DNA of 64,000 nucleotides from the IMG/VR virus record IMGVR_UViG_3300035034_000207, positions 1 to 64,000 of that record; one strand, written 5' to 3'. How positions within the stretch are numbered: the first letter of the stretch is position 1; every line of letters begins with the position of its first letter. Of this stretch, positions 5,153-27,698 are shown piece after piece. This stretch comes from a virus. The notes below the pieces were generated by a model that was not told the origin of the DNA, did not search any database, and was given only the letters and a program-made list of their open reading frames with translations. Made by a program: the position numbers and the translations under genes.

Positions 5153-6010
5153 ATGAAGAAACCGCCAACAAGAAAAAACGTTTCAATAGTTGCTCTCGTC
5201 GACGATTGCGAAGAAACTTATAGTGTACCAATTTATTATAAGACAATTACATTTCCTTCGGGAGAGATTGGAATTGAATTTGACATAGCACACAACGAAC
5301 CATACGAAGGCGTTACAATAAAAATTAATAGTGTTACAACCGAAAGCATTATGGAATTGATGTTTATTGGAGATTACTTTAGAACACGAACAAAAAGACT
5401 TACACTGAACATGGCGTTTATTCCGTTCGCTAGACAAGATCGTGAAACCACCCCCAGACACCCCTTCACTCTAAAAACATTTGCAAAATTATTAAACACT
5501 ATCGGGTTTGATGAAGTAGAATGTGTAACCCCGCATTCTAATGTCCCCGAAAATCTTATTAATAATTTGGTAACAATAGAGCCCAACTTGTTCCCTATGT
5601 TTACTAGACTATACGGATTTAAATATAAAGGTAATGATGTTATACTGCTGGCGCCCGATGCTGGCGCCGAAAAGCGGGTGTACCAGCAAGCATCCAAACT
5701 ATCAAAATCTGGCATAAACATTAAAGATGTTGTTACGATGTCAAAACAACGCGACCCTGCTACTGGAAACATTATAGGGTATAGATCACCCGTTAATATT
5801 CCTGACAACATGCATCTACTGGTTCTTGATGATATTTGCGACGGTGGGAGAACTTTCATAGAGCTTGCTAAGGTTCTACCTACAAAAAGAAAGTCATTAA
5901 CATTATACGTAACTCATGGGATTTTCTCAAAGGGTACCGATATTCTAAAAGAAGCTGGGTATGATAACGTTTCATGTTATAATGATATGCGGAAGGATAA
6001 TATATTATGA
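5153..6010 (+). CDS. prs: Ribose-phosphate pyrophosphokinase-like enzyme
   Basis: A 285-residue member of the PRPP synthetase family. Visible motifs: PFARQDRETTPRHPFTLK (about residues 87-104, the flexible-loop and ATP-binding region), PHSN (about 129), the APDAGAEKR block (about 172) and the PRPP-binding loop VLDDICDGGRTF (about 224-235). PRPP feeds nucleotide and NAD synthesis. Phages often pair it with a nicotinamide phosphoribosyltransferase (NadV); none is visible in this window. A related phage family (Adps) instead makes ADP-ribose pyrophosphate in an NAD+ reconstitution pathway, which sequence reading cannot exclude. The gene has its own palindromic promoter and overlaps the next gene by four bases (ATGA). 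Confidence 0.85.
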   Translation: MKKPPTRKNVSIVALVDDCEETYSVPIYYKTITFPSGEIGIEFDIAHNEPYEGVTIKINSVTTESIMELMFIGDYFRTRTKRLTLNMAFIPFARQDRETTPRHPFTLKTFAKLLNTIGFDEVECVTPHSNVPENLINNLVTIEPNLFPMFTRLYGFKYKGNDVILLAPDAGAEKRVYQQASKLSKSGINIKDVVTMSKQRDPATGNIIGYRSPVNIPDNMHLLVLDDICDGGRTFIELAKVLPTKRKSLTLYVTHGIFSKGTDILKEAGYDNVSCYNDMRKDNIL

Positions 6011-10588: not shown

Positions 10589-11131
10589 ATGATCATATTA
10601 GTAGAGGGCTTGGACAGATGTTTCAAGTCTGGATCTGTTGAATACTTAAGAAGCAAAATTAAAAACCCTAAAATTCTAAATACGCATTGTGGTAAACCTC
10701 CTAAAGGTGTTAACGACTTTGGGTGGTCACTTGAATACTATAAGTTCTGGTTTAAAAACTTAGAACAAGTACATTCAAGTGGTGGCACAGTTATTTCAGA
10801 TAGATCGCATCTTGGCGAATCAGTATATGCAGACTTATATAGAAATTACTCTGGTTTATATGTATATGACTTAGAGAAATTATATGTTACAACAGATTGG
10901 TATTTACTATTGCTAACTGATGATGTTTGTGATATAATAGCTAGAGATGATGGGAAATCAATCGAAAACAATGCCAGTCAAATGCAAGCAACAAAAGAAA
11001 AATTCATATCGTCATTTAATAAATCACGTATACCAAATAAGTTACATATTGATTATGCTAGAGACGACATAACACTAGAAACACTACCAAGCGTTTTAGA
11101 TAGATTTTTTGAATTAGAAGAAAGAGATTAA
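10589..11131 (+). CDS. Thymidylate kinase-like dNMP kinase
   Basis: A 180-residue P-loop protein in the TMP-kinase style: ILVEGLDRCFKSGSVEYL at the N-terminus, DRSHLGESVYADLY (about residues 71-84, the DRx motif of TMP kinases) and a LLLTDD strand. The Walker A loop is GLDRCFKS, with Phe where the family usually has Gly before Lys, so activity is likely but not certain. It sits directly upstream of dCMP hydroxymethylase and would be well placed to phosphorylate hydroxymethyl-dCMP, the job of gp1 in T4; T4 gp1 itself is not obviously similar. Two-base spacing to the previous gene. Confidence 0.6.
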   Translation: MIILVEGLDRCFKSGSVEYLRSKIKNPKILNTHCGKPPKGVNDFGWSLEYYKFWFKNLEQVHSSGGTVISDRSHLGESVYADLYRNYSGLYVYDLEKLYVTTDWYLLLLTDDVCDIIARDDGKSIENNASQMQATKEKFISSFNKSRIPNKLHIDYARDDITLETLPSVLDRFFELEERD

Positions 11132-11136
11132 TAACG

Positions 11137-11790
11137 ATGTATAATACAGTAAAAGATATTCGCGAAGCCTTTAAACTAAAATTGAGTCGCGAAGAATTTG
11201 TAATTGATAAGACTGGTGTTAAAACAATTGAAATCGTTGGTAGTAGTTTTATCGCAGATGAACCGACTATTTTTGGTGAAGTAAACGAAGGCTACGTTAA
11301 GCGTGAATTGGAATGGTATGAAAGTCGTTCTCTTAAAGTTGCAGATATCCCTGGAAAAACTCCTAAAATCTGGGAAGATGTTTCTTCAAAACAACATGGC
11401 GAAATTAATTCCAATTATGGATATCTTATTTGGTCACCAGAGAATCATAATCAATATCTAGAAGTTCTTGGCGAATTGTCTAGAAATAAAGATTCACGAA
11501 GAGCTATCATGATTTACACTAGACCAACAATGCATCTTGATTATTGTCGTGATGGTATGTCTGACTTTATATGTACCAACACGGTTCAATATCTAATCCG
11601 TGATAATAAACTAAATTGTGTAGTAAATATGAGAAGCAATGATTGTATTTTTGGATTTGCTAATGATTACGCATGGCAAAAGCATGTTCTTGATAAGTTA
11701 GCAGATGATCTAGATATTGCAACTGGCGAAATTCTATGGCAGACCGGTTCTTTACATGTTTATGAAAGACACTTTAACTTAGTTAAGTAA
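11137..11790 (+). CDS. gp42: Deoxycytidylate 5-hydroxymethylase
   Basis: Converts dCMP to 5-hydroxymethyl-dCMP with methylene-tetrahydrofolate. It is close to T4 gp42 throughout: FVIDKTGVKTIEI (21-33), ADEPTIFGEVN, VKRELEWY, PGKTPKIWE, GEINSNYGYLIWS, RRAIMIYTRP, MSDFICTNTVQYLIR with the likely catalytic Cys146, NMRSND (164-169) and FGFANDYAWQ, whose Asp177 is the residue that favours dCMP over dUMP. At 217 residues it ends after LHVYERHFNLVK and lacks the last 25 or so residues of the T4 enzyme. With gp56 it implies that cytosine in this genome is replaced by a modified form. Confidence 0.93.
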   Translation: MYNTVKDIREAFKLKLSREEFVIDKTGVKTIEIVGSSFIADEPTIFGEVNEGYVKRELEWYESRSLKVADIPGKTPKIWEDVSSKQHGEINSNYGYLIWSPENHNQYLEVLGELSRNKDSRRAIMIYTRPTMHLDYCRDGMSDFICTNTVQYLIRDNKLNCVVNMRSNDCIFGFANDYAWQKHVLDKLADDLDIATGEILWQTGSLHVYERHFNLVK

Positions 11791-11797
11791 TACGCAT

Positions 11798-12148
11798 ATG
11801 AAATTAGACAATATAGATACGTTAGTAGTTGACGTTGATGGGACTCTTTGTTATATTGAGCCAGATGGAAACTATTCAACAGTAAAACCAATACAAAACG
11901 TTATAGATAAAGTTAATGAATGTTTTAACTCTGGTAAATATATCATATTATTTACTGCGAGGGGTATGAGAACCTTTAAGGGTAACGTTCATGAAATTGA
12001 TAAACATCATAGACCTATATTAACTAAATGGTTAATTGATAATGGTGTTAAATATCACGAATTGCACTTTGGTAAACCGTGGAATAGAAGAACGGCGTAT
12101 CTAGATGATAATGCCTTAACAATAGAAATGTTTTTAGAAAATGAATAA
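11798..12148 (+). CDS. HAD-superfamily phosphatase
   Basis: 116 residues with the HAD motifs in order: VVDVDGTLC (motif I, nucleophile Asp near residue 12), LFTARG (motif II, about 50), a Lys in HFGKPW (motif III region, about 90) and YLDDNA (motif IV, about 105). The GKPW block and small size resemble phosphatases found next to nucleotidyltransferase-kinase fusions in bacterial surface-sugar clusters. Its stop overlaps the next start by eight bases, so it is coupled to exactly such a fusion here. A role in preparing or clearing a phosphorylated precursor is inferred. Confidence 0.75.
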   Translation: MKLDNIDTLVVDVDGTLCYIEPDGNYSTVKPIQNVIDKVNECFNSGKYIILFTARGMRTFKGNVHEIDKHHRPILTKWLIDNGVKYHELHFGKPWNRRTAYLDDNALTIEMFLENE

Positions 12149-13664
12149 AACTTTATACATTATACCAGCAGCTGGTCAAGCAACCAGATTAAGACCGATT
12201 TCAAACAGATCATCCAAGTGTATGGTTCCTGTTAACGGTAAACCAATAATTTCATACATCATTGATAAAATAGATCTTGATACATCAGATGTTATTATTG
12301 TGCATGGCGATAATACAGACGTTGTTTCATATTGCGAAAAGAAATACGGATATTTAAAAATATCATTTGCTAGACAAACCAAGACACAAGGACCTCTACA
12401 CGCTGTTTATTGTGGTTTACAAAAAGTAAACGATCTTAATAATTACGATAAAGTTATTATTTGGCTAGGTGATACTATCGTAGATAGCGAAGATGATATT
12501 TCTGATGATCATTCTTTAGTTGTTTCAGTTAAGGATTGGCAGAGATGGTGTTTTATGGATTTCGATGGTAAACTTTATGATAAGCCTGAAAAACAACCAC
12601 CAACAGATTTAGCTCTTATAGGTGTATACTGTTTTTCAGATTACAAAAGATTTAAAGAAGTCACAGATGAAATATGTGAAAGATCTTTCATGTTAAATGG
12701 TGAATACCAAATTTCTCAGTTATTAGAACGAATGGGTAACAGACCACAAGTAATTCTATCCAGCGAATGGTATGACTGTGGTGATTTACCATCATTATAT
12801 GATTCATCCGCTAGAATTCTAAAGAAACGAGCGTGTAGACCAGGATCTTCTGTTTCAATTGATACGATTAGCGGAACGTTTACTAAAGCGGGGAAACGAT
12901 GTGAAAATGAAGTATATTGGTATAATAATGTTCCAGATAAAGTAAAACCGTTTATACCAAATGTATATAAAACAGATGATCTATCTTATACAATGGAATT
13001 ACTACCTTCTGTTACTGTTGCAGATATGTTAGTCTTTGAAGATATGCCTGAAGATTCAATAAGATACATTATCAATAGATGTTTAGATACATATAGATTA
13101 GCGTTCAACACTCATGATAAGTATAAGAATGATTCTGAAGGAATGTTCTTTACTAAAAACTTTGAACGTGTTACAAAGTATAAAAAGCTTGATATTCATC
13201 AGCAAGAGATCAATGAGTACCTTCGGTATACTCAGAAGATGCAACAAAAGTATTCTAGTAAATTAAATGGCGAAACTTCATGCGTGCATGGCGACTATCA
13301 TCTTGGTAATATAATGTTCTCTCCTGAAACTGGCAGAGTTAAGATGATTGATCCTCGTGGTAACTGGGGTCTATTCCCGACTATTCATGGAAATTATTAT
13401 TACGATTTCGTGAAGTTTATGCAATCTATCTATGGTGAATATATATGGCTGTACCCAACTATGGATACAAATATTAATGTTCGTGATATTTGTATGGATG
13501 AAGCTGGCAAATGGTTTGGTAAAAATAACTTTGATTTTGAAATGATTTGTGATCTTGTCCCAATTATTATGGGTTCATGTCTAGAATTTCACGACGATTC
13601 AAAAACCAGGCAAGATATGATATGGGATAAAACACTACAAATTATAAGAAACAAAAATGTATAA
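12141..13664 (+). CDS. Bifunctional sugar/polyol nucleotidyltransferase-kinase fusion
   Basis: 507 residues, two domains. Residues 1-230 form a nucleotidyltransferase of the sugar-1-phosphate type: PAAGQATRLRPISNRSSKCMVPVNGKPI (GxxTRLRP...K signature) and WLGDTIVDS (metal-binding Asp). Residues about 250-507 form an aminoglycoside/choline kinase-like domain with CVHGDYHLGNIMF (Brenner HGDxHxxN motif) and MIDPRG (metal-binding Asp). The fusion could phosphorylate a small molecule and then activate it as an NDP or CMP derivative. Similar fusions occur in capsule or lipooligosaccharide loci. It overlaps the HAD gene and the following glycosyltransferase-like gene by eight bases each. The substrate is unknown. 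Confidence 0.8.
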   Translation: MNKTLYIIPAAGQATRLRPISNRSSKCMVPVNGKPIISYIIDKIDLDTSDVIIVHGDNTDVVSYCEKKYGYLKISFARQTKTQGPLHAVYCGLQKVNDLNNYDKVIIWLGDTIVDSEDDISDDHSLVVSVKDWQRWCFMDFDGKLYDKPEKQPPTDLALIGVYCFSDYKRFKEVTDEICERSFMLNGEYQISQLLERMGNRPQVILSSEWYDCGDLPSLYDSSARILKKRACRPGSSVSIDTISGTFTKAGKRCENEVYWYNNVPDKVKPFIPNVYKTDDLSYTMELLPSVTVADMLVFEDMPEDSIRYIINRCLDTYRLAFNTHDKYKNDSEGMFFTKNFERVTKYKKLDIHQQEINEYLRYTQKMQQKYSSKLNGETSCVHGDYHLGNIMFSPETGRVKMIDPRGNWGLFPTIHGNYYYDFVKFMQSIYGEYIWLYPTMDTNINVRDICMDEAGKWFGKNNFDFEMICDLVPIIMGSCLEFHDDSKTRQDMIWDKTLQIIRNKNV

Positions 13665-14757
13665 GAATTCGTTAATATATTCTACAAGATCTTTAACTGG
13701 TAAATTCGTTCAAAGCTTACTTCAGTGTATGAAAGTTGTTGAAACATGTTCTAACAATATAGATATATGTATGACTACTAAAGAATTTTCTACAATAGAT
13801 AAAATCAGAATAGAATCATGTTTACCAGATCTAAATCCTATTCACTTATACTTTGATTATTATTTTAAAGAAGTTAATCCACATAAAGGATATTGGGAAG
13901 ATATCTATAATGAAATAGATATCGAATGTTTTAAGAAATATGACGCTATCTTTATCTACGGCGGTATTCTATCTAGCGCTTCTAATATATTTCGTGGAAC
14001 AAAAAGAACTATATTATTCCCAACAAACAATGATAGATTCCAGATCAACTTTGTGTCTGTTGGTATACATTTAACTCACCTCTTAGGTTGTATTAAAGCA
14101 TCTAAAGAATTGGGCATACCTTTATACGAAATTGTCTACGATACACAAGAAGCTTCTATTGGTGATTTTCATTCTGATTATGTTCCAGAAAAATATCAGA
14201 AGATTCATAACTATGATATTGAAGATTATAAGATGAAACGCGTTGATATGTTACAATATTTTTATGACACTGAAGATCATATGTTTTTTGAAGGCGAAAC
14301 AGATCTATCACAGAAGATATATGATTTTACGTTTGGATACACTATTATAACTAAAAACAGAGCAGAAGCTCAGGATTCATATGATAATATTTTTAGTAAA
14401 TTTAAGAAGACTAATATATTTGCTCATAATAAACTAGAAAAGACATCCAATTTTGTTGACAGAGATACGTATCTTAGATATATTAAACATTCGAAATACA
14501 CGTTAGTAATACCTCCGTATGATAAGAAATCTATTTCAGTGTTTAGAATCATAGAATCTATAAAGAATAATTGTATACCACTTATTCACCCAGATTGTAC
14601 TATTTCTGACATTGAAAAGTCATATGATGTAAGTTTCAATGATTTAATTATTGATGATAGTTGGGAAGTATTCTCAGATAGTAAATACGCTAAAGTATTG
14701 GAATACCTTAAAGATAAATTTTTACCATTTAGAATTGGATTTGATAAAATAACATGA
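13657..14757 (+). CDS. Glycosyltransferase-like protein 1
   Basis: 366 residues without a clear named family. The C-terminal third (YTLVIPPYDKKSISVFRIIESIKNNCIPLI, about residues 281-311 in two parts) has the look of the donor-binding half of GT-B glycosyltransferases, where a helix after a Pro-rich strand holds the nucleotide. It shares the overall plan, and the pattern KY-T-x-IP...I-x-x-G/N-x-IP-x-x-HPD, with the next gene (HPDCTISD here, HPDYASEV there), so the two are probably distant paralogs. It is coupled by overlap on both sides. A DNA-base or surface-glycan transferase role is inferred from context. Confidence 0.55.
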   Translation: MYKNSLIYSTRSLTGKFVQSLLQCMKVVETCSNNIDICMTTKEFSTIDKIRIESCLPDLNPIHLYFDYYFKEVNPHKGYWEDIYNEIDIECFKKYDAIFIYGGILSSASNIFRGTKRTILFPTNNDRFQINFVSVGIHLTHLLGCIKASKELGIPLYEIVYDTQEASIGDFHSDYVPEKYQKIHNYDIEDYKMKRVDMLQYFYDTEDHMFFEGETDLSQKIYDFTFGYTIITKNRAEAQDSYDNIFSKFKKTNIFAHNKLEKTSNFVDRDTYLRYIKHSKYTLVIPPYDKKSISVFRIIESIKNNCIPLIHPDCTISDIEKSYDVSFNDLIIDDSWEVFSDSKYAKVLEYLKDKFLPFRIGFDKIT

Positions 14758-15983
14758 AACATATAGCCTTCGCAAAAATTGGTAAATCTATTAAGTTTAA
14801 GACAGCGTTCTCTCCTATTGGCGGCGATAACGAGCCAGGATCTATGTTAAGAATTCTTGCTAACAATAATCCAGATAAAACTTTCTATTTAATTGGTAAG
14901 TCAGATTTTAGGAAACTATCATATGATGATCGCATTACGTTATTTCCATATGATAATGTAGTTGATGTTCTAACTGGGTATAAAAACGAAAACCGTGATT
15001 ATCTAAAGAATAAGCTTGCTTCTATGAATATAACTATTGACTATTCTATTTTCATGATTGGTCAGATCGGTACTGTTACTATTCCAAATAGAATTGAACA
15101 AATTAAGGACAGATCGCTAACTGCTTCAGTAATTGAGATGACCTTAGGATATTCTACACCAATTATTGAATGGATAAATTCTGAGAAGGTTCCATTCATT
15201 GAAATAGTTAACGATCCTAGATATACTTTAGCTCAAAGCCGGGATATAATTGAAAACCCAGTTAAGACTCTGTCTCAGTTTACAGGAACATATGAGAAGA
15301 AGACAATACGATCATACGAAGACCAGACACGAGAGAACCACACTATAAATACTAAGTACGCTGAAATGGAAAAGATCTTTCTTTATGATAGAAAATTCCC
15401 AATTAATATTGATAAAAATACTAATTTTGTAATGATTCTAAACGAAGGACACCCTTCAAGATTCCAACAAGTTAAAGAATGGATCCTAGATAATATTGAA
15501 CATGCCAATATCTATGGCAAATGGGAACATCCTTTATCTTTACCTTACAATAATTTTAAAGGTACAATACAAATTGAACATGCACAAAGACTATTGACAA
15601 GTGTGAAGTATACGTTTATAATACCAATATTAAAAGGTTGGGCTACATCAAAATATATTGAAATGATTCAAGCAGGCGTTATACCATTCTTTCATCCTGA
15701 CTACGCCAGCGAAGTTCCTGAAGTATTAAAAAGAATACCAGAGTTTCTAATATGTAAGAAGCCTGAAGATCTTGGTAAAAAAATTAAATTCTTAAATGAT
15801 AGTGATGAACTACGTGAAAAGATTTTGGCACTACTACAAAAAGAATTTCTAACAGATGATATGTATGATGGGACTAAACTAAATGATATTGTAATGTCTT
15901 CTATTAATAGCGATTATGTACAAGTTAATAAAGGTGATTATAAGAAACTAGAAACAAACTTATTAGATGGGTTATTTAAATAA
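14754..15983 (+). CDS. Glycosyltransferase-like protein 2
   Basis: 409 residues, starting in an ATGA overlap with glycosyltransferase-like protein 1. The N-terminus KIGKSIKFKTAFSPIGGDNEP and the C-terminal KYTFIIPILKGWATSKYIEMIQAGVIPFFHPDY suggest a two-Rossmann (GT-B) transferase; the latter block parallels VIPPY...CIPLIHPDC of its neighbour. It is not recognisably the T4 alpha- or beta-glucosyltransferase. Being flanked by an activated-sugar enzyme and a C5-methyltransferase-like protein, between gp42 and gp56, it is a candidate for modifying hydroxymethylcytosine in DNA. Confidence 0.55.
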   Translation: MKHIAFAKIGKSIKFKTAFSPIGGDNEPGSMLRILANNNPDKTFYLIGKSDFRKLSYDDRITLFPYDNVVDVLTGYKNENRDYLKNKLASMNITIDYSIFMIGQIGTVTIPNRIEQIKDRSLTASVIEMTLGYSTPIIEWINSEKVPFIEIVNDPRYTLAQSRDIIENPVKTLSQFTGTYEKKTIRSYEDQTRENHTINTKYAEMEKIFLYDRKFPINIDKNTNFVMILNEGHPSRFQQVKEWILDNIEHANIYGKWEHPLSLPYNNFKGTIQIEHAQRLLTSVKYTFIIPILKGWATSKYIEMIQAGVIPFFHPDYASEVPEVLKRIPEFLICKKPEDLGKKIKFLNDSDELREKILALLQKEFLTDDMYDGTKLNDIVMSSINSDYVQVNKGDYKKLETNLLDGLFK

Positions 15984-15984
15984 T

Positions 15985-17241
15985 ATGAAAAGTACTAAAG
16001 ATATAACATGGTCTGCATTGATTCCTCTTATTGGAGGATTTCCGTTAGGTGCTGAAGCTGAGCTAAATAAACCACCCGAGCAAATAATTGGTTACGGTTT
16101 TCCGCATGATAATCAATACATACACTATCAGGAAGAAGTTCTTGGAAGGAAAATGGATAAGGTTGTTCTAAATGAAGAAGGTGTTGTTATATCAGGTAAT
16201 GCTCTAAAACATGTTAATATTATTGTAGCAACACCTCCATGTTCGGCTTTGTCATCTTTAAATTGTGGTAAATGCAATTCTGTTAAAGGCGCGACCGCGG
16301 AATCTACAAAGTGGATGGATTATGCTCTACGCGAATCGTTGGGAACAATCAAATGTGATGTTTTCATGTTAGAAAATGCGCCAGCACTTGCTTCTAATAA
16401 AGGGGCTGAAATGGCGAAAAGATTATCTGAGACAGCTAATCAATATGGTTATTCGTCTGGTTATTATAAAACAAGTACAAAACACCATGGTATACCACAA
16501 AACAGACAACGAACGTTCTTTTTTGCGTGGAAATCTGATAGAGCTCCAGAACTGCCATGGGTTCGTAAACCTAGAGAAAACTTTAAGACGTTTCTAGAAA
16601 ATATACCTAGCGATCTAACACAACAAGATCTTATCATAAACACGAAAGTAACATCTGAACCATATTATATATACATGAAAGATAAACTTAATCTTGATGT
16701 TAGATCGGCAATGATAGAATCAGGATTAAAGACAACGTTACAATATGTTATGAAACGCGATGATATTGAAAAGGCGTTAGCTTATTTTAACGAAACAAAT
16801 AACGAACTTGGTATTAAACTAGCCAGTCATGTAATTAAAAAGAAAGCTATGGGTCTTGGTGTTTGGGATGGATCTGTTCATGTTTTTGACGATACTATGA
16901 ATGCGCTGATTGGTAGAAACATGAATGATACAATTCACCCAAGTCATGATAGATCGTTGAATGTTCGTGAAGCGCTTTGTCTGATGGGCTTTCCTGAAGA
17001 CTTTGAACTACAAGGTGGTCTGAAGAATACAAACATGATAGCTCAGAACGTTCCTGCTTGTACTGCAGCCGACATGGTCATGTTTGCTTGTATGTTTATT
17101 AACAGAGAACTTCAAACGTCAAATTCAAATGTTATTTTCCAGAATAATGAAAACAAAAAACATTTACCTGTTACGTTTAAAAGCGATATAATAGCGGTCG
17201 ATGAATTAGCTTCTCCCATGGAAGAATTATTTACAAAATAG
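15985..17241 (+). CDS. C5-cytosine methyltransferase-like protein
   Basis: 418 residues from ATG 15985 (an upstream in-frame ATG at 15967 lies inside the previous gene). C5-MTase motifs in order: ALIPLIGGFPLGAE (motif I), ATPPCSALS (motif IV, catalytic Cys), FMLENAPAL (motif VI, Glu), GIPQNRQRTFFFAW (motif VIII) and NVREALCLMGFPEDF plus a NVP-containing motif X near residues 360-366. Motif I is odd: the usual FxGxGG is IPLIGG, losing the first Gly and the Phe. In a genome where cytosine C5 is already substituted, an ordinary methyltransferase has no self substrate; action on host DNA or a changed chemistry is possible. Confidence 0.75.
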   Translation: MKSTKDITWSALIPLIGGFPLGAEAELNKPPEQIIGYGFPHDNQYIHYQEEVLGRKMDKVVLNEEGVVISGNALKHVNIIVATPPCSALSSLNCGKCNSVKGATAESTKWMDYALRESLGTIKCDVFMLENAPALASNKGAEMAKRLSETANQYGYSSGYYKTSTKHHGIPQNRQRTFFFAWKSDRAPELPWVRKPRENFKTFLENIPSDLTQQDLIINTKVTSEPYYIYMKDKLNLDVRSAMIESGLKTTLQYVMKRDDIEKALAYFNETNNELGIKLASHVIKKKAMGLGVWDGSVHVFDDTMNALIGRNMNDTIHPSHDRSLNVREALCLMGFPEDFELQGGLKNTNMIAQNVPACTAADMVMFACMFINRELQTSNSNVIFQNNENKKHLPVTFKSDIIAVDELASPMEELFTK

Positions 17242-17255
17242 AAAGAAATAAAAAT

Positions 17256-17783
17256 ATGTCAGAATTTAATGAATGTGCAGATCTTCTAAAAGAAGATGAT
17301 GTTTCTAAATTTAAAACTCTATATAAAACAATGTTAGATAAGGGTGTTAATCCACTTGACGAAATGTTTAAGATGCAAAACTCTCTACAAGAAGCTCTTG
17401 GTTCTAAGTTTCCTGAACGTTGTAAACCACCAAAAGCTATACAAACAAAAGGAGAACTAACAGATTTTCTAAAAGATCAAAAATCCGCTATTGATGATGA
17501 GTTTCGTGAATTGTTTGAAGCAGTTGTTGGTATGTCTAGAGATTCATCTATTCGATCTGCAAACTGGAAGAAATGGAAATCTAAATACGATGATATTAGA
17601 TCAGAGAAAACAAATGAAAACTTAACAAGTAACGACGTAGCCGAACGTTCATTTGAAGCTATTGACATTTTCCATTTTGTTATTAATTTATACCTTGGCT
17701 TAGACATTGACGCTGAGATGTTATTTGTCATGTATTGTATTAAAAATAAAGAGAATTTTGATAGACAAGACAGAGGATACTAA
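17256..17783 (+). CDS. gp56: dCTP pyrophosphatase (dCTPase-dUTPase)
   Basis: Hydrolyses dCTP and dUTP to monophosphates, keeping normal cytosine out of phage DNA and feeding dCMP to gp42. The 175-residue protein follows T4 gp56 closely: FNECADLLK at the start, DPLxxM-like DEMFKMQNSLQ, IDDEFRELFEAVVGMSR (metal-binding Glu residues, about 86-103), WKKWKSKY, and IDIFHFVINLYLGLDIDAEMLF...YCIKNKENFDRQDRGY at the C-terminus. The all-alpha NTP pyrophosphatase fold uses the ExxE and ExxD type residues seen here. It closes the modification block, 14 bases after the methyltransferase-like gene. Confidence 0.93.
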   Translation: MSEFNECADLLKEDDVSKFKTLYKTMLDKGVNPLDEMFKMQNSLQEALGSKFPERCKPPKAIQTKGELTDFLKDQKSAIDDEFRELFEAVVGMSRDSSIRSANWKKWKSKYDDIRSEKTNENLTSNDVAERSFEAIDIFHFVINLYLGLDIDAEMLFVMYCIKNKENFDRQDRGY

Positions 17784-25750: not shown

Positions 25751-26041
25751 ATGGCTAGAGAAGATGACCAAGGAAGACCTAGCTGGTATATTCGTAGAAG
25801 AATTATCATAACTACTTTATTATTCTGCGCTTCTTGTGTTATATATATTCTATTGTTTTATCCTAAAACAGACTCTAGAGTTTTAGAAACTGTAATAGTA
25901 TCGGCCTTTGCTCTCGGTGGTGGTACGATTGGATCATATGTGTTTGGTGCCGCGTGGACAGACATCAAAATAGATTCAAACAATAAAACCAATAGAAGAG
26001 AAACTGTTGTAATAAACGAACAGAATATTGACGAAAGATAA
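25751..26041 (+). CDS. Two-helix membrane protein
   Basis: 96 residues. A basic N-terminus (SWYIRRR) leads into a first transmembrane helix (IIITTLLFCASCVIYILLF, about 18-36) and, after a short loop, a second (VIVSAFALGGGTIGSYVFGAAW, about 48-69), ending in a polar tail. This is the plan of a small two-helix holin, and it sits in a late operon between gp51 and the tape-measure-like gene, but holin identity is only an inference. Its stop overlaps the upstream TTG alternative start of the next gene. Confidence 0.6.
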   Translation: MAREDDQGRPSWYIRRRIIITTLLFCASCVIYILLFYPKTDSRVLETVIVSAFALGGGTIGSYVFGAAWTDIKIDSNNKTNRRETVVINEQNIDER

Positions 26042-26042
26042 C

Positions 26043-27698
26043 ATGTTACCAAAAATATCACCAAGTTCTATAGGAAGTTCGTTATCGTCTAAAATAAAAG
26101 ATGGTGGTCTTGCTATTGCACAAACTATCAACCCTGTTGGTATTGCTTCTAAAGGTTTTGATTTAGTTAAGAACGAGTTGAGTAAAGAATTAGACGATGT
26201 TGATAGTTTACTTGGTGGTTTCAAATCTATCATGAACGATCTTAAAGGCAATTTTGTTAAAGCGATATCACAACTTAAAGCTAAACAAGAACAAGGCAAC
26301 GATAAGCTAGAAAAAATTAGTTCCAGTTCTGAAAAATCCGAAGATAGTATTAAAGGTGTTGGTAGTGATATAAGCAGGATGGCTGAAGACTTGGCTGTGT
26401 TGGTTAAAATAACATCAGACGTGTGGGGTGTTAATAAAGAACAACTAGATGAACAAAGAAAAATAGTTCAAATAGAAGAAGAAACGCTAAAGACTGATAG
26501 ATTACGTCTCCAGAAAGAGCGTGCTAAATTGCGCGGCGAAAAGATCATTAAGAATCCTTTAGCCCCTGATATTACAAAGAAGACAGGATTTTTTGCCAAC
26601 CTTCTAAGAACGCTTGGACCGATGATGATGTTGTTACGTCCATTACTTATTGCCATTACAGCACTAGGCGCATTGCTTACTGCTGGTGTGGTTGGCGGCG
26701 GCCTTGCAAGCGTGGGCGCTCTTGCAACCGGCGGAATACTGGCTGGTAAAAAACTTTTTGCAAAAAGAGCAGCCAAGAAAGCTGGTACAGAGGTTATCAA
26801 AAAAACCGCAGGTAGAAAAGCTGGGGCAATGGCGGCAAGGGCTGCTGCAAGAGTGGCTGGAGGTGCCTTGTTATATATGGGTGTAGAGGGAGCGTTTAAA
26901 GCTGCAAAAAATGTCCAAGAAGCTATTAAATCTGATAAGAAAATAGAACAAATTATAGCAAAGGGTGTAGAGGGTTTTATTGTTGGGTCGTTAAACGGCG
27001 CCATTAACATTGTTAGTCTCGTGACTGGAAAGCAGTTTAAGAAGCTAGAAGATTCGGCCGACGTTGCAAAGCTGAATTCGGCCATGGCAGAACCCCTGAA
27101 AAAATTGATGAAAGCTACTTCTCCGTTGGCTGGTGGTGAAGCGTTTAAAACATTTGAAAAAATAACATCGTCTATAAGTGAATTCAATACAAGACAAGCC
27201 GATAAGTTGTCTTCGTGGTCCAAACGTCAAATGGAAATTATAGATCAAAGAACCGGAACATATCAGGAAAATATCGGCCTAGTAGCTGATGCTTTTACAT
27301 CTCCGTTTGCAGACATTTCTAAATCAGTATCAAATACCATGTCGTCCGTTAAAAATACAATAGACGAATCTTTACTATTGATGATGACAGACACTGCTAA
27401 CACGTTTGCATTAAATTCCAATAGACCTGATTCTGTAGTGTTCACAAAGAAACAAGAGTCTGGGGAAATATCACCAAGTATTAATACTACATCCAACAAA
27501 CTAGCTAGCTCTGTAGTGTTTAATCAGACAAAGAATAACGAATTAGAAAGCGTTGGTGGTAAAAACAATGGTTCTGGCGCTAACAGTATTATCAACCAAC
27601 CAATATCAAACACCACAAACAACACCAACGTTATATCTGGTAACCTTATAACAAGAAACCCAGAATACCCAGGGCAACCGTTTGGTATAAAGTTCTAG
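26043..27698 (+). CDS. Tail tape-measure-like protein (gp29 position)
   Basis: 551 residues from ATG 26043. The first 170 residues are polar and coiled-coil-like (LKAKQEQGNDKLEKISSSSE; RLRLQKERAKLRGEK), followed by hydrophobic and Ala/Gly-rich stretches (residues about 188-290, e.g. MMLLRPLLIAITALGALLTA and RKAGAMAARAAARVAGGALL), a plan usual in tape-measure proteins that set tail length and may enter the host membrane. T4 gp29 has 590 residues and also follows hub genes. No direct gp29 motif is recognised, so another hub-associated role is possible. It is convergent with the next gene and shares CTAG with its stop. Confidence 0.5.
   Translation: MLPKISPSSIGSSLSSKIKDGGLAIAQTINPVGIASKGFDLVKNELSKELDDVDSLLGGFKSIMNDLKGNFVKAISQLKAKQEQGNDKLEKISSSSEKSEDSIKGVGSDISRMAEDLAVLVKITSDVWGVNKEQLDEQRKIVQIEEETLKTDRLRLQKERAKLRGEKIIKNPLAPDITKKTGFFANLLRTLGPMMMLLRPLLIAITALGALLTAGVVGGGLASVGALATGGILAGKKLFAKRAAKKAGTEVIKKTAGRKAGAMAARAAARVAGGALLYMGVEGAFKAAKNVQEAIKSDKKIEQIIAKGVEGFIVGSLNGAINIVSLVTGKQFKKLEDSADVAKLNSAMAEPLKKLMKATSPLAGGEAFKTFEKITSSISEFNTRQADKLSSWSKRQMEIIDQRTGTYQENIGLVADAFTSPFADISKSVSNTMSSVKNTIDESLLLMMTDTANTFALNSNRPDSVVFTKKQESGEISPSINTTSNKLASSVVFNQTKNNELESVGGKNNGSGANSIINQPISNTTNNTNVISGNLITRNPEYPGQPFGIKF

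Follow-up and report, generated by a model that had tools for sequence, protein, structure and literature searches.

A viral gene cassette predicted to glycosylate 5-hydroxymethylcytosine in phage DNA with a self-made sugar donor

The 64,000-nucleotide stretch analyzed here (the window) is positions 1 to 64,000 of the IMG/VR virus record IMGVR_UViG_3300035034_000207, a fragment of 69,878 bases carrying a T4-like core of polymerase, clamp loader, UvsX, gp41-type helicase and baseplate genes. Positions 10589 to 17783 hold eight genes, all on the + strand, encoding in order a dNMP/thymidylate-kinase-like protein, a gp42-type dCMP hydroxymethylase, a HAD phosphatase, a nucleotidyltransferase-kinase fusion, two glycosyltransferases (GT1 and GT2), a C5-cytosine-methyltransferase-like (MTase-like) protein and a gp56-type dCTPase/dUTPase. 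Every junction from HAD through the fusion, GT1 and GT2 to the MTase-like gene is overlapping, by 4 to 17 bases. The original prediction had located this co-oriented cluster correctly but counted six genes between gp42 and gp56, where there are five; its assignments of gp42, gp56, the fusion, the MTase and HAD were borne out by the E values of PHROG, Pfam and TIGRFAM models. Its remark that genes 42 and 56 are dispersed in T4 also holds, the two being separated there by about 9 kb. A Megablast comparison of the region with phages returned zero matches. The arrangement is not due to chance, since it recurs almost unchanged, in gene content and order, in Pseudoalteromonas phage XG4 and appears with substitutions in many environmental contigs.

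The gp42-type enzyme (217 amino acids (aa); 11137 to 11790; PHROG E 9e-59) is 64% identical to T4 gp42 but only about 24% identical to the 5-hydroxy-dCMP-type enzymes of RB69, Thanatos and Acj61, whose chemistry has been described (PMC13390438), and in a phylogenetic tree it groups with the T4 hydroxymethylase clade, apart from that of the RB69-type 5-hydroxy-dCMP synthases. It retains the catalytic Cys148 and Asp179 (T4 numbering), the latter present in 74 of the 74 cassette gp42s compared; Asp or Asn at the position equivalent to 177 of thymidylate synthase (TS) sets the use of dCMP or dUMP, with Asp corresponding to dCMP (PMC8670742). The gp56-type protein (175 aa; 17256 to 17783; PHROG 173, E 4e-27) is 42% identical to T4 gp56 over 175 aa and 52% identical to its XG4 homologue. 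Given the clade and identity of gp42, its conserved Cys148 and Asp179 and the homology of gp56, the predicted first step is the T4-type formation of 5-hydroxymethylcytosine (hmC). Residue E60 of gp42 was dropped as a discriminator of T4- and RB69-type enzymes, an improved alignment having Glu in both. Elsewhere in the window lies a second TS gene (2008 to 2934); its specificity position is occupied by Asn, making the product a true thymidylate (dTMP) synthase.

The first gene of the cluster (180 aa; 10589 to 11131) matches the PHROG thymidylate kinase family (E 3e-6) and Pfam Thymidylate_kin (E 0.003) and probably encodes a 5-hydroxymethyl-dCMP kinase. In RB69, Acj61, Denvervirus and some IMG/VR cassettes, too, the dCMP-modifying enzyme has a kinase as its neighbour. 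The P-loop of the window protein is degenerate (GLDRCFKSG), with Phe preceding Lys. The best reading of these homologies is that gp42, gp56 and the kinase would together supply 5-hydroxymethyl-dCTP (hmdCTP): gp56 would remove dCTP, gp42 would convert dCMP to 5-hydroxymethyl-dCMP, and the kinase would begin its conversion to hmdCTP for incorporation by the phage polymerase.

The HAD phosphatase (116 aa; 11798 to 12148) is EcbF/BcbF-like and matches the capsule phosphatase model TIGR01689 with E 2e-22, under the model's curated cut-off; it is 50% identical to its XG4 counterpart and 32-35% identical to RB69 ORF051c and Acj61 p081. The fusion protein (507 aa; 12141 to 13664) joins an N-terminal RmlA/GlmU-type sugar-1-phosphate nucleotidyltransferase (NTP_transferase, E 2e-15) to a C-terminal APH/choline-kinase-like domain (APH, E 2e-4) in which HGDxHxxN and DPRG are conserved. 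The domain order is that of the RB69-type fusion. Both proteins are distant homologues of RB69 ORF53_52c/ORF051c, Thanatos TH1_060/TH1_061 (25% identity between the fusion and TH1_060) and Acj61 p083/p081, which sit beside 5-hydroxy-dCMP synthases. Arabinosyl cytosine occurs in RB69-type phage DNA (PMC6024577, PMC13390438) and pentosyl cytosine in that of Thanatos, where inactivation of TH1_060 almost abolished propagation (PMC12838424).

The HAD phosphatase and the fusion are best read as making a nucleotide sugar. A comparable trio of phosphatase, sugar kinase and nucleotidyltransferase operates in the MupP-AmgK-MurU and the GmhB/HddA/HddC-type (heptose) activation routes, which differ in serving bacterial cell-wall and lipopolysaccharide sugars and in being encoded by separate genes. 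The strongest evidence that the three activities form one pathway is that they persist despite changed fusions and one swapped enzyme family: in contigs including L070, L141, L125 and L023, a HAD-kinase fusion and a CTP_transf-like nucleotidyltransferase substitute for the fusion and HAD of the window. A LicC/LicA-type phosphocholine activation was rejected, the top PDB match to LicC spanning 71 residues and the family matches being to sugar nucleotidyltransferases.

Homology of HAD and the fusion to RB69-type genes, with a kinase adjoining a TS-like gene, raises the alternative of an RB69/Thanatos-type pathway, in which the base would be 5-hydroxycytosine and the sugar arabinose. We regard this as improbable, in view of the identity and tree position of gp42 described above and because other components of that pathway were not found: a SIS arabinose-5-phosphate isomerase is absent from the 69.9-kb record, itself a fragment, and the RB69 ORF003c-type arabinosyltransferase had no BLAST match to GT1 or GT2, with an hhalign value of 0.2% for GT2. 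Moreover, the RB69-type 5-hydroxy-dCMP synthase, SIS isomerase and RB69-type transferase were found in 0 of 177 environmental contigs. The cassette thus shares with the arabinosyl-5-hydroxycytosine systems of RB69/Mosigvirus, Thanatos and Acj61 the HAD phosphatase, the fusion and the adjacent dNMP kinase and TS-like enzyme, but differs from them in its T4-clade hydroxymethylase, its transferases of unrelated sequence and its MTase-like protein.

GT1 (366 aa; 13657 to 14757) and GT2 (409 aa; 14754 to 15983) matched neither of the T4 β- and α-glucosyltransferase families (BGT and AGT) in Pfam, PHROGs or NCBIfam. The assertion that neither T4 glucosyltransferase is recognizable therefore holds for sequence families but fails for fold, as the AF2 models of both proteins (pLDDT 88.4 for GT2 and 80.4 for GT1) had T4 BGT as best VIA match. 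For GT2, the proposed core transferase, the match had Z 20.3 and an rmsd of 3.9 Å over 309 residues, the next non-T4 structure scoring 16.8 (3.5 lower); for the accessory GT1, Z was 16.8 with an rmsd of 4.2-4.4 Å over 287 residues, and the next non-T4 structure scored 14.1 (2.7 lower). A weak hhalign alignment places GT2 residues R236, K300 and E303, which do not vary among 32 relatives, on BGT residues R195, R269 and E272.

Conservation was assessed in the 177 contigs, which are mutually related and were counted once each; they were pooled from scans seeded separately by GT2, the fusion, the MTase-like protein and GT1, and are thus not a random sample. Single-sequence scans with the fusion and with GT1 gave zero relatives, which alignment queries recovered. 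GT2 occurred in 122 of the 177 contigs, accompanied by the MTase-like gene in 118 and by HAD in 108 of these; the fusion occurred in 101, with HAD in 99 and the MTase-like gene in 89. All 87 contigs carrying both gp42 and the MTase-like gene also encode a transferase, and 86 of them a sugar-activation set. The fusion and HAD accompany GT2 in 40 contigs, AGT and TAGT in nine, AGT in eight and GT1 with GT2 in three, while the HAD-kinase and CTP_transf pair accompanies GT2 in 25 and GT1 with GT2 in one. The sole exception (L052) has AGT alone, a true homologue of the T4 enzyme (E 3e-63), with zero activation genes, as expected if host UDP-glucose is its donor. AGT (also in L153, E 2e-12) and TAGT, which take the transferase slot in such variant cassettes, are recognized DNA glycosyltransferase families.

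The check on gene order proposed with the original prediction gave a near-identical order in the cultured Pseudoalteromonas phage vB_Psh_XG4 (PP712099), whose unannotated cluster reads gp42-HAD-fusion-GT2-GT1-MTase-gp56. Its gene set is that of the window, with 30-52% identity gene by gene; it differs in the swapped order of GT1 and GT2 and in having no kinase within the stretch read. Partial versions were found in an Agathobaculum phage and in Enterococcus Denvervirus (9183, Planchet), an unrelated siphophage genus with the order kinase-TS-like-dUTPase-HAD-fusion-GT2, in which the TS-like enzyme belongs to another clade and no MTase-like gene was seen.

These distributions also bear on the alternative that the nucleotide-sugar and transferase genes act on cell-surface or capsid glycan and merely adjoin gp42. 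HAD and nucleotidyltransferase families of this kind are typical of capsule pathways, and GT1 has a weak exostosin match. The sugar module is, however, linked to the genes for gp42, dCMP deaminase and the MTase-like protein in many contigs and several phage lineages, AGT or TAGT occupies the transferase slot elsewhere, and in structure the transferases match T4 BGT best, so that we consider a role in surface or capsid glycan very unlikely, even more so than an RB69-type pathway.

The MTase-like protein (424 aa; 15967 to 17241) matches PF00145 (DNA_methylase) with E 5e-21. Aligned to DNMT1 and M.HaeIII, it has the catalytic set but differs in motifs I and X of the S-adenosylmethionine (SAM) site. 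Among 106 non-redundant sequences, C92 (the catalytic Cys), E136-N137 (motif VI) and R180 and R182 (QxRxR of motif VIII) are invariant, while nearly the whole family has [IV]PL[IV]GG in place of FxGxGG in motif I and AQNV in place of GN[AS]V in motif X; a canonical phage C5-methyltransferase (L157) has the standard motif I. Of 11 relatives in a bacterial genome collection, eight lie on phage-like contigs in metagenome-assembled genomes beside gp42 and dCMP deaminase and three have the MTase-like gene alone; being mostly on phage-like contigs, they provide no bacterial context. Some of these contigs lack a recognized glycosyltransferase but carry genes resembling 5-hydroxymethyldeoxyuridine (5-hmdU) kinase and inositol-phosphate synthase. 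Its place beside gp42 and dCMP deaminase, sometimes without a recognized glycosyltransferase, indicates that the MTase-like protein is associated more closely with hmC than with one particular decoration.

Several loci carry the MTase-like gene in other settings. In L224 (5931-9989) and L229 (1578-5355), the interval separating gp42/dCMP deaminase from the MTase-like gene holds inositol-1-phosphate-synthase-like genes and genes with a 5-hmdU-kinase helical domain, a set that probably specifies a different hypermodification of hmC. L052 (5927-8318) has a tandem pair of MTase-like genes between AGT and gp56. Aurunvirus cyanophages of the S-TIM5 type (L014) encode members of the family with no sugar genes within 10 kb, and in their TS-like protein the position that marks dCMP use is Asp.

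The MTase-like protein may act on the same DNA as the transferases, and a first guess is that it modifies residual cytosines. As an ordinary SAM-dependent C5-methyltransferase, it would mark unmodified cytosines independently of the sugar steps; we tentatively regard this as its likeliest role, short of even confidence. The Pfam and NCBIfam C5-methyltransferase matches and the intact catalytic Cys, ENxP and QxRxR are in keeping with it, whereas the changes in motifs I and X of almost the entire family and the nearly constant association with gp42 and the sugar module are not. Laboratory C5-methyltransferases perform promiscuous C5 chemistry without SAM. With the Cys nucleophile intact and the SAM-site motifs rewritten, the protein might instead form a C6-thiol adduct with hmC in DNA and use it for C5 chemistry other than methylation, by which the oxygen of the hydroxymethyl group would be removed or replaced or hmC would be primed for decoration. 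We rank this below residual-cytosine methylation and consider it rather unlikely. If it were true, the MTase-like protein would serve environmental viruses as a general enzyme of hmC processing, as its gene adjoins gp42 also in AGT or 5-hmdU-kinase-like loci that lack GT2.

Taken together, we consider it likely that the cassette encodes a pathway for glycosylated hmC in phage DNA. Following incorporation of hmdCTP, the HAD phosphatase and the kinase and nucleotidyltransferase domains of the fusion would start from a sugar phosphate of the host and yield a nucleotide sugar that the host itself does not provide; the sugar may, at a guess, be a pentose. GT2, as a diverged T4-BGT-like enzyme, would transfer it onto hmC in DNA, GT1 would probably contribute a second sugar or pattern, and the decorated DNA would presumably be protected from nucleases. 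The earlier proposal, incorporation of hmC followed by its decoration with a moiety that the fusion enzyme activates, is supported by the clade of gp42, the co-travelling activation genes, the exchanges with AGT and TAGT and the BGT fold. Its suggestion of a different chemistry needs refining: a sugar is the most probable moiety, making this glycosylation with a phage-made donor, from genes related to those of RB69 type, rather than something wholly different.

Several points weigh against this pathway. Its basis is computational (the gene set, homologies, GT-B/BGT fold, conservation and modular swapping), and the record is a fragment of about 70 kb. The fusion and the RB69-type genes share just 22-25% identity. 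The hhalign match of GT2 to T4 BGT is weak, and a BGT-like fold is common to many GT-B enzymes and does not prove the acceptor. Kinship among the contigs means that their counts are not independent events. The MTase-like protein, a core member and the most constant partner, is not accounted for by the proposed steps.

Two other loci of the window were recorded. A cytidylyltransferase-like gene (1017-1565) and a ribose-phosphate pyrophosphokinase gene (5153-6010) suggest an NAD-salvage set, and an open reading frame of 556 aa without a PHROG match (26028-27698) lies amid baseplate and replication genes.

Compared with the glucosylation of hmC in T4, the cassette has orthologues of gp42 and gp56, two transferases of BGT-like fold and, in variants, AGT in the same slot; it differs in its phage-encoded sugar activation, in transferases unrecognizable by sequence, in the compactness of its genes and in the C5-MTase-like protein. 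It would be a new form of phage hmC glycosylation, in which a T4-type base is combined with donor genes of RB69 type and diverged BGT-like transferases have a constant MTase-like partner, although surveys of RB69-type chemistry in diverse viruses could reduce its novelty. For enzymology, it offers new BGT-like transferases and a strictly conserved C5-methyltransferase-like protein with altered cofactor motifs, and public records include a cultured carrier, Pseudoalteromonas phage XG4. The cassette points to a widespread, uncharacterized route by which environmental viruses would sugar-modify hmC with a self-made donor, from genes on about 7 kb.

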